From positions 1-36,149 of the forward strand of contig WAPX01000008.1 of NCBI GenBank assembly GCA_015520485.1: DNA of 36,149 bases. The letters run 5' to 3'. Under the pieces are notes generated by a model. It worked only from the letters and a program-made list of their open reading frames with translations, had not been told where the DNA came from and did not search any database. The translations under genes were made by a program, and so were the position numbers. Numbering within the stretch: the stretch's first letter is position 1; each line of letters starts with the position of its first letter. Origin of the DNA: Archaeoglobaceae archaeon (GTDB lineage: Archaea > Halobacteriota > Archaeoglobi > Archaeoglobales > Archaeoglobaceae). Positions 6,216-26,691 of this stretch are shown piece after piece.

Positions 6216-6800
6216 TCAGTCAAGACTGCCCTTGGTGCTCGGTATTTCATCTCCCTCCACCGTTCTTGCCTCTCTGAAAGCTAATGCAAACGCTTTAAAC
6301 GCAGACTCCATGATGTGGTGAGAATTTTTACCCCTGACGTTCAGATAAACGTTGATTCCCGAATTTCTGCAAAGGGTGTCGAAGAAGTGTTCAAAATTTT
6401 CTCCTCTAACGCCCTTAACATCACCCGTCTTTCCCTCAAAGTTGAAGTATCCTCTCCCGCTAAGATCAACACCACAGATGGCTACTGCATCGTCCATGGG
6501 AACTACAGCACTCCCAAACCTTCTGATTCCCCTTCTGTCTCCAAGAGCTGCAGCTAAAGCTTTACCAAGAGTTATCGCTACATCTTCGACCGTGTGGTGT
6601 TCGTCAACTTCCAGATCCCCCCTTGCTTTTATGCGCAAACTCAATCTGGAGTGTTTGGCGAAACTTTCGAGCATGTGATCAAGAAAGGGAATACCTGTGT
6701 CTATGGAAATATCACCACTTTCATCGAGCTTTAAGCTAACGCTGACTTCGGTTTCCCTCGTTTTCCTGTTGAACTCTGCACTTCTTCTGCACTTATTCAT
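6216..6800 (-). CDS. hisB: Imidazoleglycerol-phosphate dehydratase HisB
   Basis: The enzyme dehydrates imidazole glycerol phosphate in histidine synthesis and needs two metal ions. The metal-binding motifs are visible: DHMLESFAKH near residue 45, DEHHTVEDVAI near 70 and HHIMESAFKAFA near 150. I chose the ATG at 6800 (194 residues) because the family normally begins just before the NRKTRETE segment, and a TATA-like AAGTATTAATC lies about 26 bp upstream. A GTG at 6860 would add 20 basic residues of no family character. cbiP follows with no gap. Confidence 0.93.
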   Translation of the reverse strand: MNKCRRSAEFNRKTRETEVSVSLKLDESGDISIDTGIPFLDHMLESFAKHSRLSLRIKARGDLEVDEHHTVEDVAITLGKALAAALGDRRGIRRFGSAVVPMDDAVAICGVDLSGRGYFNFEGKTGDVKGVRGENFEHFFDTLCRNSGINVYLNVRGKNSHHIMESAFKAFALAFREARTVEGDEIPSTKGSLD

Positions 6801-6948
6801 AACTGCATTTTTAAACTCTTTGATTAATACTTTTACTCTCCTTTTTTTACTCTCCCGCACTTACTGGACAGCTAAAAATTATCTCGCAAACACATTTCAC
6901 CAAAAACCTTTAAAACCACTCAATAAAAAATCCTGTAAGGTGTTCTCC

Positions 6949-7488
6949 ATGCGTGCCGACATACCAGCGAAAGAAGTGATGACGAGAGAAGTTTGCACAG
7001 CTGCACCAGATGAGTCTCTGCACGCTGCAGCAAAAAAAATGATAAAATTTGGAGTTGGTAGCATAGTCGTAGTTGACGGAGGAGAACCAAGGGGAATCGT
7101 TACGGAGAAAGACATACTGAGCAAAGTTGTGGCGAAAAACAAAACTCCTTCAGAAGTCAAACTGTACGAAATCATGAGCAGTCCCGTAATAACGATACTG
7201 CCCACAACATCAATCAGAGAAGCGACGAGAATAATGATTAAAAAAGGCATAAGAAGACTTCCCGTCATAGATGATGGAAAACTCGTCGGTATAGTTACAG
7301 ATACGGATATTCTGAACATAAGTATGGATATAAGCGAGCTTATTGGTTTGTTAGATGAGAGAAGCTTGGAAGTTCTGCCCGAAGACATTGGAGGTAAATG
7401 CGAGAGGTGTGGTCGTTTTGCAGAAAGGCTTGTTGAGGTAAACGGCATGAAGCTGTGCGAGGACTGTGCGGAGAGTTTTGAAGATTGA
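6949..7488 (+). CDS. CBS-pair protein with C-terminal zinc ribbon (Ta0289-like)
   Basis: This 179-residue protein has two CBS motifs (about residues 9-65 and 75-130), each ending with the usual GIVTEKDIL or GIVTDTDIL. A rubredoxin-like ribbon follows at the C-terminus (CERCGRF ... CEDCAESF). Thermoplasma Ta0289 has this architecture. CBS pairs usually bind adenine nucleotides or SAM and work as sensors; the ribbon probably holds zinc or iron. The ATG at 6949 follows a GTAAGGTG site at suitable spacing, and a hydrophobic upstream extension in the same frame is not credible. It is divergent from hisB. Target unknown. Confidence 0.88.
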   Translation: MRADIPAKEVMTREVCTAAPDESLHAAAKKMIKFGVGSIVVVDGGEPRGIVTEKDILSKVVAKNKTPSEVKLYEIMSSPVITILPTTSIREATRIMIKKGIRRLPVIDDGKLVGIVTDTDILNISMDISELIGLLDERSLEVLPEDIGGKCERCGRFAERLVEVNGMKLCEDCAESFED

Positions 7489-7655
7489 CACTGCAACTTC
7501 TATTTTAGCTGTCCCTTAACGTTTAGCACATTTTAGCATAAAACATGGGCTAAGGCTTTAAACGTCAGACATTTCAAGTATCATCTTTTAAGCACCATCC
7601 TTAAAAATGAATCTATTAATAACCATAACATTAACTGTGATACAGAGGTGTGTGG

Positions 7656-8534
7656 ATGAGTTTAAAGAAGCCGAAACCCGGAACCATAATGGATATAGCT
7701 ACCACAGACGTCGTAACACTTCCGCCAACGACAACGATAATGGCTGCCACAAAGACAATGAAAACGTACAGGTTCAGAAGATTGCCCATAGCCGATCCCG
7801 GCACGAGGAGGCTCGAAGGCATTATAACTGCAACCGACTTAGTAAACTTTTTTGGAGGCGGAGACAAGTACGGAATAATTGAAAGGAAGTATTCAGGAAA
7901 TTTGCTCGCTGCAATAAACGAGGACGTAAGGGAGATAATGGAAAGAGATGTTTTAACTTTATCCTACACGGACGACCTGAACGACGGGCTTGAACTCATG
8001 CTCAGCAGGGGGGTTGGCGGATGCCCCATTGTTGATGAGGAGAACAGAGTCGTCGGCATAGTTACAGAGAGAGATTACCTCCGCTACATGGCCGGGATGT
8101 GTGATTTGCAAGGGAAAGTTTCGGGTTACATGACTAAAAGCGTTATAACAGCAAAGCCAACTCTGAGTATAGCTGAAGCAATGAAAATCATGATTTCCAG
8201 AAAGATACGAAGATTACCCATAATCGAGGATGGATTGCTGATAGGATGGTTAAACACACCCACAATAGTGAGGTATTTCAGCGGAGAAGCTTTTAAAGCA
8301 CTTGTAACCGGGAACGCTAACGATGTTCTATCCCAGCCGGTTTCATCCATACTCTCTTCAACTTCTTCAGGATATGTATCCCCCCTTACAGTTTCACCAG
8401 ACGAAGCAATGTGTGAGGTTGCGAGAAAGATGCTTTCTAGAAGGGTTGGCTGTGCTCTGGTCGTGAGCGATGGAAGGCTTGAAGGAATAATTACGGAGCA
8501 AGACATGATAAAATTCCTGTACAGATCGAGGTAA
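7656..8534 (+). CDS. Protein of four CBS domains (two Bateman modules)
   Basis: The 292-residue product consists almost entirely of four CBS repeats, recognisable by segments such as DVVTLPPTTTIMAA, DVLTLSYTDDLNDG, SVITAKPTLSIAEA and GYVSPLTVSPDEA, each followed by a GI(V/I)T-type or GWLNT strand. Proteins of this kind bind AMP, ADP, ATP or SAM and regulate a partner. The ATG at 7656 follows GAGGTG at 5-nt spacing; a GTG two codons earlier lies on top of that site and is less likely. Its stop lies 7 nt before the RNA ligase start, so the two are very probably one operon and may act together. Partner function is inference. Confidence 0.87.
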   Translation: MSLKKPKPGTIMDIATTDVVTLPPTTTIMAATKTMKTYRFRRLPIADPGTRRLEGIITATDLVNFFGGGDKYGIIERKYSGNLLAAINEDVREIMERDVLTLSYTDDLNDGLELMLSRGVGGCPIVDEENRVVGIVTERDYLRYMAGMCDLQGKVSGYMTKSVITAKPTLSIAEAMKIMISRKIRRLPIIEDGLLIGWLNTPTIVRYFSGEAFKALVTGNANDVLSQPVSSILSSTSSGYVSPLTVSPDEAMCEVARKMLSRRVGCALVVSDGRLEGIITEQDMIKFLYRSR

Positions 8535-23531: not shown

Positions 23532-23972
23532 ATGGGACTTGTTGCTGAAGTGTTTGGAGTTTACGCAGCACCCGGTGTTTTTGGCATTACACCTGTTGTT
23601 GTTTTAAGGGCTGAAGATGGAAGAATACTCCCGATATACATAGGTATTTCAGAGGCTGTTGCCATTCACTCGGCGTTGAAGAACGAAATACCTCCACGCC
23701 CCATGACTCACGACCTGCTCGTGGAGGTGATAAGAAGACTGGATGCAAAGGTTGAGAAAATAGTTATCGACGATCTCGTTGACAACACTTTTTACGCCCG
23801 TCTGATTTTGAGAAGAGGGGACAGAGAAATCGAAATAGATGCGAGGCCGAGCGATAGCATAGCTGTGGCAGTCAGGCTGGGAGCCCCGATATATATAGAC
23901 GAGAGCGTGCTGGATGAAGCTTATAAAGATGAACTGCCCGACGACTTTGTGGACTTCGATCAGGTAATTTAA
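23532..23972 (+). CDS. Bifunctional nuclease family protein (DUF151)
   Basis: The 146-residue protein matches the DUF151/BFN domain: VVVLRAEDGRILPIYIGISEAVAI near residue 22, PRPMTHDLLVEVIRRL near 55, NTFYARLILRR near 85 and DARPSDSIAVAVRLGAPIYIDESVL near 102. Related plant proteins are reported as DNases/RNases, and bacterial ones have uncertain roles. The archaeal role is unknown. It starts 27 bp after the PUA-like gene and ends 25 bp before the CBS gene, so it may belong to one transcription unit. Confidence 0.9.
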   Translation: MGLVAEVFGVYAAPGVFGITPVVVLRAEDGRILPIYIGISEAVAIHSALKNEIPPRPMTHDLLVEVIRRLDAKVEKIVIDDLVDNTFYARLILRRGDREIEIDARPSDSIAVAVRLGAPIYIDESVLDEAYKDELPDDFVDFDQVI

Positions 23973-23997
23973 ACGGTAATTTGAGGAGGTGGTGAAC

Positions 23998-25155
23998 GTG
24001 GAAAATGCAGAACTGAAGTCTCTTGTTAAGTACGACTACGATGTTATCGACGCAGAAGAAACGATTTCAAAAGCAATCTCCATGCTTGAAGGTGGAAAAA
24101 AGGGTGCGATACTGGTTAAAGAGGGTGAAGAAATAGTTGGAGTGATCAGGGAAAGAGACCTGATGAGAGGTTGCGTAATGGTAAACCCGCATGAAACAAA
24201 GATAAAAAATTTCATGATTAAAACCGGAATTTTAAAACTGGAAGAGTTGACGATCGAGTGCGTCGCGAGGAGGTTTATTGAGGATTCCACACCCTTCGTG
24301 CTCGTGGAAACTGACGGTAAGTACGGAGCAATATACATCAACGACTTCCTGAACGCAGTAAAGAGCGAATTTGAGAACGTAAAGGCAAGAGATGTAATGA
24401 ATCCCGAAGTTATAACAATAAACGAGAGGGAGAGTGCTGCCAAGGCTTTAGCGATGATGAGAAATCACGGAATAGACAGGCTGGTCGTTATCGACGACAA
24501 TCACAGGGTCGTGGGGATCGTAACTGGAAAGGACATAATAGACAGGGTAATATCGCCCAAAAAAGAGAGTAGACTCGGTGGTGGAAGCGGTAAAATCGAG
24601 CGCTCTCTCTCCATCATGGTTGAGAGCGTAATGAGCTATCCGGTTGTTACGGCAGACAGGCTCGACCCCGTTTCAAAGATAATAAACCTGATGATTGAAA
24701 ACAACATATCTAGCGTTGTGATAACGAGAGACGGAATACCGGAAGGGATAGTCATCAAGAAAGACCTGCTTGAAATTCTGATAAAGAAGAAAACTCCAGC
24801 GGAGTTTCACGTTCAGTTCATAACCAAGGGAGTAACGATGGACGAGTTCGACAGACAGGCAGTGATGAAGGATCTGGAGAGGTTTATGAGAAAGTTCAGG
24901 AACTTCCTCGGAGAGGCAGCTCTTTTCGTATACGTAAAGAGACACAAGGAGAACTTCAGGGGGCTGCCCCTGATCCACGTTAGGATGAAGCTCACGAGCG
25001 ACAAGGGGACTTTCTTTGTAACTGGTGAGAGCTGGGGCGTGGAGTTCGCAATAAATGCAACACTGAAAAAGCTTGAAAGAGCTGTGCTTCAGCAGAAAGA
25101 GCTTCTGCTTGACCACAGAATGATCAAGAAATTCTACGAGGAGACGATCTCATGA
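23998..25155 (+). CDS. Four-CBS protein with C-terminal HPF/RaiA-like domain
   Basis: The 385-residue protein has four CBS motifs in about 260 residues (for example GVIRERDLMR, GIVTGKDIIDRV and GIVIKKDLLEIL). The last 120 residues follow the order strand-helix-strand-strand-strand-helix (FHVQFI; DRQAVMKDLERFMRKFR; ALFVYVKRHKE; LIHVRMKLTSDKG; TFFVTGESW; INATLKKLERAV). That is the topology of ribosome hibernation factor HPF/RaiA. A nucleotide-sensing ribosome factor is a plausible reading, not proven. The GTG at 23998 follows GGAGGTG by 6 nt. The next gene overlaps its stop codon. Confidence 0.8.
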   Translation: MENAELKSLVKYDYDVIDAEETISKAISMLEGGKKGAILVKEGEEIVGVIRERDLMRGCVMVNPHETKIKNFMIKTGILKLEELTIECVARRFIEDSTPFVLVETDGKYGAIYINDFLNAVKSEFENVKARDVMNPEVITINERESAAKALAMMRNHGIDRLVVIDDNHRVVGIVTGKDIIDRVISPKKESRLGGGSGKIERSLSIMVESVMSYPVVTADRLDPVSKIINLMIENNISSVVITRDGIPEGIVIKKDLLEILIKKKTPAEFHVQFITKGVTMDEFDRQAVMKDLERFMRKFRNFLGEAALFVYVKRHKENFRGLPLIHVRMKLTSDKGTFFVTGESWGVEFAINATLKKLERAVLQQKELLLDHRMIKKFYEETIS

Positions 25156-25547
25156 CAGAACTGTCTTTCAGGCATGTCGTTGAAATAATAGATAAACCTG
25201 TGGAGTACAGCTTTACGGATTTTGCAAGGAATTTAGCGGTAATGGAAGTGGACGCCGTTTACTACTACGATGGAAAACTCTACTCCATAGACTACGAGGT
25301 GGCTGATGCTGTGGTGGAAAAGTGCTTCGCTCTGATAGAGGTCATAACCTCCGCACACTTCTGCAGAGTTTCGGAATACAGAAAGTGGATACTGTACCAC
25401 GGCAACGAAGATGAAGCAGAGTACGTCTCGAAAATTGAGAAGATCAGAGGAGATACGGCAATTATACACGTGCTCAAGTCCGAGAACAGATTCATAAGAA
25501 AGGTAAATGAGCTGATAAATTCTGGAAATTACAAATCTTTTTGTTAA
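25152..25547 (+). CDS. Uncharacterised 131-residue protein coupled to the CBS-HPF-like gene
   Basis: I do not recognise the family. The sequence is acidic, mixed alpha/beta and soluble, with a central YYYDGKLYSIDYEVADAV and a later ITSAHFCRVSEYRKW. Its ATG overlaps the upstream TGA as ATGA, so translation is very likely coupled to the CBS-HPF-like protein and the two may work together. T-rich DNA follows the stop, marking a probable operon end. No membrane segment or signal peptide is visible. Confidence 0.75.
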   Translation: MTELSFRHVVEIIDKPVEYSFTDFARNLAVMEVDAVYYYDGKLYSIDYEVADAVVEKCFALIEVITSAHFCRVSEYRKWILYHGNEDEAEYVSKIEKIRGDTAIIHVLKSENRFIRKVNELINSGNYKSFC

Positions 25548-26073: not shown

Positions 26074-26691
26074 ATGAATAGGCCAGATATCCTGTTAATC
26101 TCAGACCCGGGATATGAAGGATCTTCATTCCTGTTCAATCTCGCCTCGCAGTTATCATCCAACATAGTCTGGATTGCGTCTGAACCACCTGCAATGCTGC
26201 AGGCGATAGTCAAGTCTTACAACTTCAGAGGCAAGCTGTGCATAGCGACGCCAAAACAGTGGGAAGGCTACAACTTCGTCAACCTGATGAATCTGAACGA
26301 GGTCAGCATAGCAATATCAAAAGCTGGAGAGAACATGAGCAGGTTTACACTTCTGATATCAGTAATACCGGAACTGCTTTTAATTCATGGTCTCGAAAAA
26401 ACGTACCTTTTCCTGCTCAACACGATATGGAAGATTCAGAATCAGGGGGGCAGGACTCTCGCACTGATTACAAAAGGGGCACAGGGCAGGAGGGAAGAGA
26501 TAATGATATCCCGTCCGTTTACGATTGTTTTTAGGTTGAAAAAAAATCTTGTCGAAAATTCGTGGAGAAGGGAGCTTGTAGTGGAGTCCCCATACGCCTC
26601 CAGAGAGGTAACGGAAGTGGAGGTTGACGGTTACAGAGCCAGCATCCCCGACTCGGTGACGGAGGTGCTGGCAAGCATGAAGAAATTTTAA
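26074..26691 (+). CDS. Second KaiC/RecA-like protein with degenerate P-loop
   Basis: The 205-residue protein opens with DILLISDPGYEGSSFLFNLA where a Walker A motif would stand; the Lys-Ser/Thr is absent and the loop reads PGYEGSS. IVWIASEPPAML follows, as in KaiC-like proteins, and TLLISVIPELLLI sits at the Walker B position without acidic residues. It probably cannot hydrolyse ATP. The ATG at 26074 is about 27 bp after an AAAAATATA box with no ribosome site, so leaderless expression is likely. It resembles the product of 15112-15816 in design but diverges strongly in sequence. Function unknown. Confidence 0.68.
   Translation: MNRPDILLISDPGYEGSSFLFNLASQLSSNIVWIASEPPAMLQAIVKSYNFRGKLCIATPKQWEGYNFVNLMNLNEVSIAISKAGENMSRFTLLISVIPELLLIHGLEKTYLFLLNTIWKIQNQGGRTLALITKGAQGRREEIMISRPFTIVFRLKKNLVENSWRRELVVESPYASREVTEVEVDGYRASIPDSVTEVLASMKKF

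Follow-up and report, generated by a model that had tools for sequence, protein, structure and literature searches.

A HibA-family ribosome hibernation factor, with four CBS domains and an HPF/RaiA domain, predicted in an Archaeoglobaceae genome

Results

We find that the gene at positions 23998-25155 of the window (the whole stretch of 36,149 nucleotides that was analyzed) almost certainly encodes the HibA of an Archaeoglobaceae species, with its function on the ribosome assigned by homology. HibA is an archaeal family described in April 2026 (Madru et al., Nat Commun 2026; PMC13324472); the family is already published, and the window protein adds a member to it. The gene and its probable ribosome-binding site are:

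23998-25155, forward strand: hibA, 385-aa HibA-family ribosome hibernation factor with four CBS domains and an HPF/RaiA domain (phmmer, Pfam, family alignment A1)
23983-23989, forward strand: probable Shine-Dalgarno sequence (GAGGAGG), separated by 8 bases from the hibA start codon (read directly from the sequence)

The frame is open from a GTG start to a TGA stop and encodes 385 aa. An alternative in-frame GTG lies at 23989, but we prefer the start at 23998 because, by our own reading, GAGGAGG stands 8 bases upstream of it. The source genome comprises 1.57 Mb in 68 contigs, and the window is one of these (C8). In a contig scan that gave three loci, the nearest named relative found is an Archaeoglobaceae metagenome-assembled genome with 95% identity in the hibA product; the loci also include a Sulfurihydrogenibium CBS protein aligned over residues 3-261 with 25% identity.

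The assignment to HibA follows from a phmmer search of the PDB, in which the whole protein matches chain 9sr9_H (392 aa) with an E-value of 2.8e-43 over residues 14-385, co-linear through the loop discussed below. This chain carries the label 'Dehydrogenase' in the PDB copy; PDB 9SR9 is HibA-ATP from Pyrococcus abyssi, and the entries that hold the chain (9sr9, 9sra, 9srb, 9src, 9srd, 9sre, 9srf and 9t7h) are the HibA entries of PMC13324472. A second solved relative that includes the HPF part is 9l96_a (2.7e-24 for the whole protein). Domain architecture, spacing and the loop that in HibA extends to the peptidyl-transferase center (PTC) are all kept, and we therefore place the window protein in the known HibA family. 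The HibA structure itself is not among the Foldseek and VIA-align matches listed, from a structure library that ends at the releases of 2026-04-08. The earlier note's central proposal, a CBS module joined to an HPF/RaiA domain in a ribosome hibernation factor, is supported by sequence, by fold and by the published HibA.

The available text of PMC13324472 describes what such a protein does. P. abyssi HibA consists of four CBS domains (residues 1-269) and an HPF/RaiA fold (residues 270-392) with two archaeal-specific insertions, and the family is present in 47% of archaeal genomes. The C-terminal domain occupies the mRNA/tRNA channel of the 30S subunit, blocking the mRNA and tRNA sites, while the CBS module is seen in three positions on the 50S subunit, one of them with loop 190-207 in the peptidyl-transferase center. 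HibA was found on single 70S and 30S particles, with aSBDS also found on idle ribosomes, and it inhibits translation in vitro, which the N-terminal half of the P. abyssi protein does not. HibA preserves 70S ribosomes: Thermococcus barophilus with the gene deleted had a lag of 4 h instead of 2 h and ∼60% fewer 70S ribosomes (PMC13324472). Archaeoglobaceae HibA would probably act as its P. abyssi and T. barophilus counterparts do. Bound to the ribosome, it would block translation; its CBS module may swing across the 50S tRNA sites, with loop 191-208 predicted to be able to reach the peptidyl-transferase center; and it would hold the 70S particle together, shielding the active sites until growth resumes. 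An aSBDS gene is present in the source genome (contig C49). The string 'archaeoglob' is absent from the main text of PMC13324472, and we found no on-topic literature on ribosome hibernation in Archaeoglobus.

The N-terminal part of the window protein contains these features:

23998-24789, forward strand: CBS module made up of two CBS pairs, residues 1-264 (Pfam CBS, full-length model, Foldseek)
24514-24534, forward strand: CBS3 nucleotide motif G173-I-V-T176-G-K-D179 (alignment)
24568-24621, forward strand: equivalent of the HibA PTC loop, residues 191-208, corresponding to P. abyssi 190-207 (gap-free alignment to 9sr9_H)

The four CBS motifs noticed earlier are borne out: Pfam CBS is matched at 3.3e-31, with three stretches passing individually and the fourth recognized by its motif and by the model. 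The full-length model (pLDDT 81.7, pTM 0.63) matches solved CBS modules in Foldseek, including SSO3205 with AMP (3ddj), a chain of the Methanosarcina ribosome with SriA and SriB (9znf_4), MJ1225, AMPK gamma and Dri. CBS proteins are what is found among the 50 matches listed; because the CBS part fills this list, the C-terminal domain was predicted separately. The long loop between CBS3 and CBS4 is present with the position and length of P. abyssi 190-207, and residues 188-201 of the model have pLDDT below 50, as would be the case for a free loop.

To describe the nucleotide sites we used alignment A1, which holds 40 of 50 HibA-like open reading frames, the window copy standing for L001; the ten rows omitted (L014, L015, L020, L022, L025-L027, L030, L033 and L035) are of the same family. 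Residues G173 to D179 of CBS3 form what we take to be a nucleotide motif, G-h-x-T-x-x-D, with T176 and D179 in place. Thr or Ser at this position occurs only in CBS3 of the window protein, and is absent from CBS1, CBS2 and CBS4. Across A1 the CBS3 position is Thr in 39 of 40 rows and Ser in the remaining one. In CBS4 of the window protein the Thr is replaced by I253, and D256 is invariant in A1. The CBS4 Thr is missing in 26 of the 30 Archaeoglobaceae rows and in none of the ten rows from other families; since all ten of the latter keep it, nucleotide binding may differ in the window protein. The CBS3/4 pair may bind an adenine nucleotide.

These sites bear on a refinement of the HibA explanation, not its opposite: that the CBS module is a true switch, in which AMP or ATP at CBS3/CBS4 drives ribosome engagement or release, either directly or via a sequestering partner. 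We consider this possible but doubtful. The retention of T176 and D179 and the invariant D256 are consistent with it, as is the binding of AMP by the P. abyssi module (Kd 12 µM, one per module), and the authors of that study leave the regulatory role of the nucleotide open (PMC13324472). On the other hand, AMP and ATP caused no clear change in HibA ribosome binding, leaving both the conformations and their proportions in reconstituted complexes nearly the same (PMC13324472), and in the window protein three of the four CBS domains lack the Thr/Ser. The built-in nucleotide sensor proposed in the earlier note is thus only partly supported: binding has a footing in the P. abyssi measurement, but switching is not supported, given the absence of a clear AMP/ATP effect and a Thr-x-x-Asp confined to CBS3.

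The remainder of the protein is a single domain:

24790-25152, forward strand: HPF/RaiA-type domain, residues 265-385, the 30S-binding part by homology (phmmer, AlphaFold2, Foldseek, VIA-align, S30AE)

In the full-length model this region forms a strand (270-277), a helix (283-299), three strands (307-320, 323-334 and 337-346) and a final helix (348-384), which is the HPF order, as the earlier note had read from the last ∼120 residues and as the model of the domain alone also shows. Predicted by AlphaFold2 from 32 relatives, the isolated domain has pLDDT 89.9 and is HPF-like in fold. In Foldseek against the PDB, HPF/RaiA/pY-type chains occupy rows 1-37, of which 30 reach E≤0.001 (best 1.3e-5), and row 38 is the unrelated PelC. 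VIA-align places HPF/RaiA/pY chains in rows 1-33, with E. coli HPF the best match (Z = 13.9, 95 of 95 residues aligned at rmsd 1.6), and Z falls from 8.9 to 7.8 at the first row of another kind. Some of the chains in both lists, from L. lactis and from the chloroplast small subunit, are counted here as presumably pY/HPF, an assignment not drawn from their titles. Identity to HPF/RaiA/pY chains over the fold is only 11-21%. The domain model spans 6-109 against the 95 aligned E. coli residues, and its 9 extra residues are expected if the archaeal HPF-domain insertions described in PMC13324472 are present.

Sequence comparison leads to the same domain. The C-terminal 121 residues alone match 9sr9_H at 3.1e-20, with one single-residue gap across 115 residues, and 9l96_a at 8.8e-7 (phmmer). 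The match to Pfam Ribosomal_S30AE has an E-value of 0.046 (14.9 bits) for the whole window protein and 0.0067 (17.6 bits) for the domain alone, and among 32 related C-terminal domains 29 match at E≤1 (best 1.1e-5). A genome-wide S30AE search returns the hibA ORF as its sole match (E 0.0089, 17.3 bits), and no second HPF (PF02482) was found in the source genome. The PF02482 cut-off of 23.7 bits is not reached by the whole protein, by the domain alone or in the genome search; automatic annotation would therefore call hibA merely a CBS protein. Because its fold is common to HPF/RaiA, the domain may work like HPF even though it is not filed in PF02482. The 'lysine-rich final helix' singled out earlier carries little weight: the window domain does have a net charge of +6, but across the 40 aligned relatives this value varies between -7 and +10, so that basic charge is not a feature of the family.

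The C-terminal domain also weighs against a different reading, namely that the protein is a CBS regulator of transcription or of an enzyme (HhpR-like or AMPK-gamma-like) in which the HPF fold has been co-opted for a different RNA or protein. The CBS part taken by itself does resemble modules of this kind (AMPK gamma by fold, and the HhpR model at 3.4e-8, a score far short of the cut-off), yet over its full length the protein best matches HibA, and its C-terminal domain on its own picks out HibA and HPF. In P. abyssi, moreover, the N-terminal half by itself fails to inhibit translation (PMC13324472), which means that the C-terminal domain is needed there. We judge the regulator reading very improbable. 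Least credible of all is a ribosome dimerization factor resembling aRDF or long HPF, for which the sole support is the earlier note's mention of a dimerization factor in Thermococcales, given that CBS is mentioned 0 times in the available text of the aRDF paper (PMC11724365), that Pfam shows no second C-terminal domain beyond the HPF domain, and that HibA is described on single 70S particles (PMC13324472). That mention of a CBS-containing dimerization factor evidently mixed aRDF with HibA. The Thermococcales CBS ribosome protein is HibA itself (PMC13324472), and since the window protein belongs to the same family, the qualification 'credible but not identical' falls.

HibA is a core gene of Archaeoglobaceae. 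It is found in all 40 good genomes of the family (at least 90% completeness, at most 5% contamination) and in 52 of the 55 overall (E≤1e-60), the three genomes with no match (G213, G209 and G215) being 78-89% complete. Across a phylum-wide sample, 94 of 196 genomes contain a match (E≤1e-15). Members of the family could therefore be used for testing whether the CBS module regulates hibernation.

Nine of the 55 Archaeoglobaceae genomes contain two HibA copies; the source genome has one. A tree built from 48 of the 50 HibA-like ORFs (L056 and L057 omitted) groups nine diverged Archaeoglobaceae copies into one clade with support of 100/100. Of these, seven are second copies that had been labelled as such before the tree was built; the other two, each the sole copy found in its genome, joined the same clade unforeseen:

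Diverged HibA clade: L034, L035, L038-L041, L044, L045 and L047 (L034 and L035 are the sole copies)

At ten positions, including residues 187 and 198 at the loop, the 8 diverged rows of A1 are collectively distinct from the remaining 22 Archaeoglobaceae rows. The PTC-loop equivalent of the diverged copies has one extra residue, and 6 of the 8 rows have a less basic loop than the usual +3. We found no discussion of two HibA copies per genome in the main-text passages of PMC13324472 on paralogs, copies or duplication. A smaller alignment, A2, holds 32 of the 40 A1 rows; it omits L028 and L047 (ambiguous letters), L039, L040, L042 and L045 (near-duplicates), and L056 and L057 (divergent). The last two, from the same phylum, combine a HibA-like CBS module with a strongly diverged C-terminal part, possibly HPF-like, and have an insertion ahead of the last helix.

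The genes around hibA show no conserved partnership, and we therefore reject both the upstream genes and a downstream ORF as parts of the system. Upstream lie a bifunctional-nuclease gene (23532-23972), an RsmF-like methyltransferase gene and PUA genes, which adjoin hibA in only 2 of 20 neighborhoods compared (two of which are second copies and one from another family): L061, of the same genus, has PUA and nuclease, and L062 (genus g7) has all three. Downstream, a 131-aa ORF (25152-25547, forward strand) has an ATG that overlaps the hibA stop; it has no Pfam match above cut-off and no NCBIfam match. Homologs occur in 37 of the 55 Archaeoglobaceae genomes, adjoining hibA in the five same-genus genomes that show both, and lying elsewhere in the other 32, at a nearest distance of 1.2 kb (G197). 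Separately, a 205-aa ORF (26074-26691, forward strand) with no Pfam or NCBIfam match lies between DUF5371 and PRPP synthase genes, an order also seen in L061.

The window also encodes a second candidate ribosome-associated protein, a 294-aa CBS-module protein at 7650-8534 (forward strand). Its best solved relatives are 9znf_5 (5.4e-67), a CBS chain of the entry for the Methanosarcina acetivorans ribosome that includes SriA and SriB, and MJ1225 (6.2e-66). Homologs are present in 53 of the 55 Archaeoglobaceae genomes and in all 40 good ones; HibA and the 294-aa protein therefore coexist in all 40. The adjoining gene (6697-7488, forward strand) encodes a protein with two CBS domains and a C-terminus rich in cysteine, and relatives of both proteins also lie close together in L073.

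Discussion

The available text of PMC13324472, which distinguishes six CM families, reports that HibA seldom co-occurs with CM-1/2/4/5, and its coexistence here with the 294-aa protein is only a lead in that respect. One could imagine that hibernation in Archaeoglobaceae is layered and departs from the published exclusion pattern, with HibA accompanied by a Sri-like standalone CBS module and, in some members, by a diverged second HibA copy whose loop at the position of the PTC loop is longer. The different HibA forms could then be suited to different stresses or states of the ribosome, and the HibA of the window lineage, with one canonical nucleotide site, could be a simpler AMP reader. We offer this proposal as speculation that is, on balance, unlikely.

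Comparison with known systems

Bacterial HPF/RaiA/YfiA/protein Y has the fold of the C-terminal domain in common with the window protein (Z up to 13.9), but the matched bacterial HPF/RaiA chains consist of the HPF domain only, with no CBS module. Another archaeal ribosome-inactivating factor, aRDF (PF0560), is a 30S-30S dimerizer (PMC11724365). The Sri proteins on M. acetivorans ribosomes (9znf, 9zng and 9zni) are CBS modules on the 70S particle, and their fold match to the window HibA is limited to its CBS part; no on-topic paper on SriA/SriB was found among the matches listed. Dri of Pyrobaculum calidifontis (9e6q/9e7f) likewise places on the ribosome a CBS module that matches the window CBS part by fold. 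As described in PMC13324472, Dri has two CBS modules and no HPF domain; unlike it, the window protein has four CBS motifs and an HPF domain in 385 aa.

The general discovery, an HPF domain joined to a CBS module on archaeal ribosomes, has already been published. HibA of P. abyssi (Q9UYR4) and T. barophilus (F0LKU5) likewise consists of four CBS domains and a C-terminal HPF/RaiA domain (PMC13324472), and the window protein is close to the former in length (385 against 392 aa). Unlike P. abyssi HibA, the window protein lacks the CBS4 Thr (I253), has a different loop sequence, and comes from Archaeoglobaceae.
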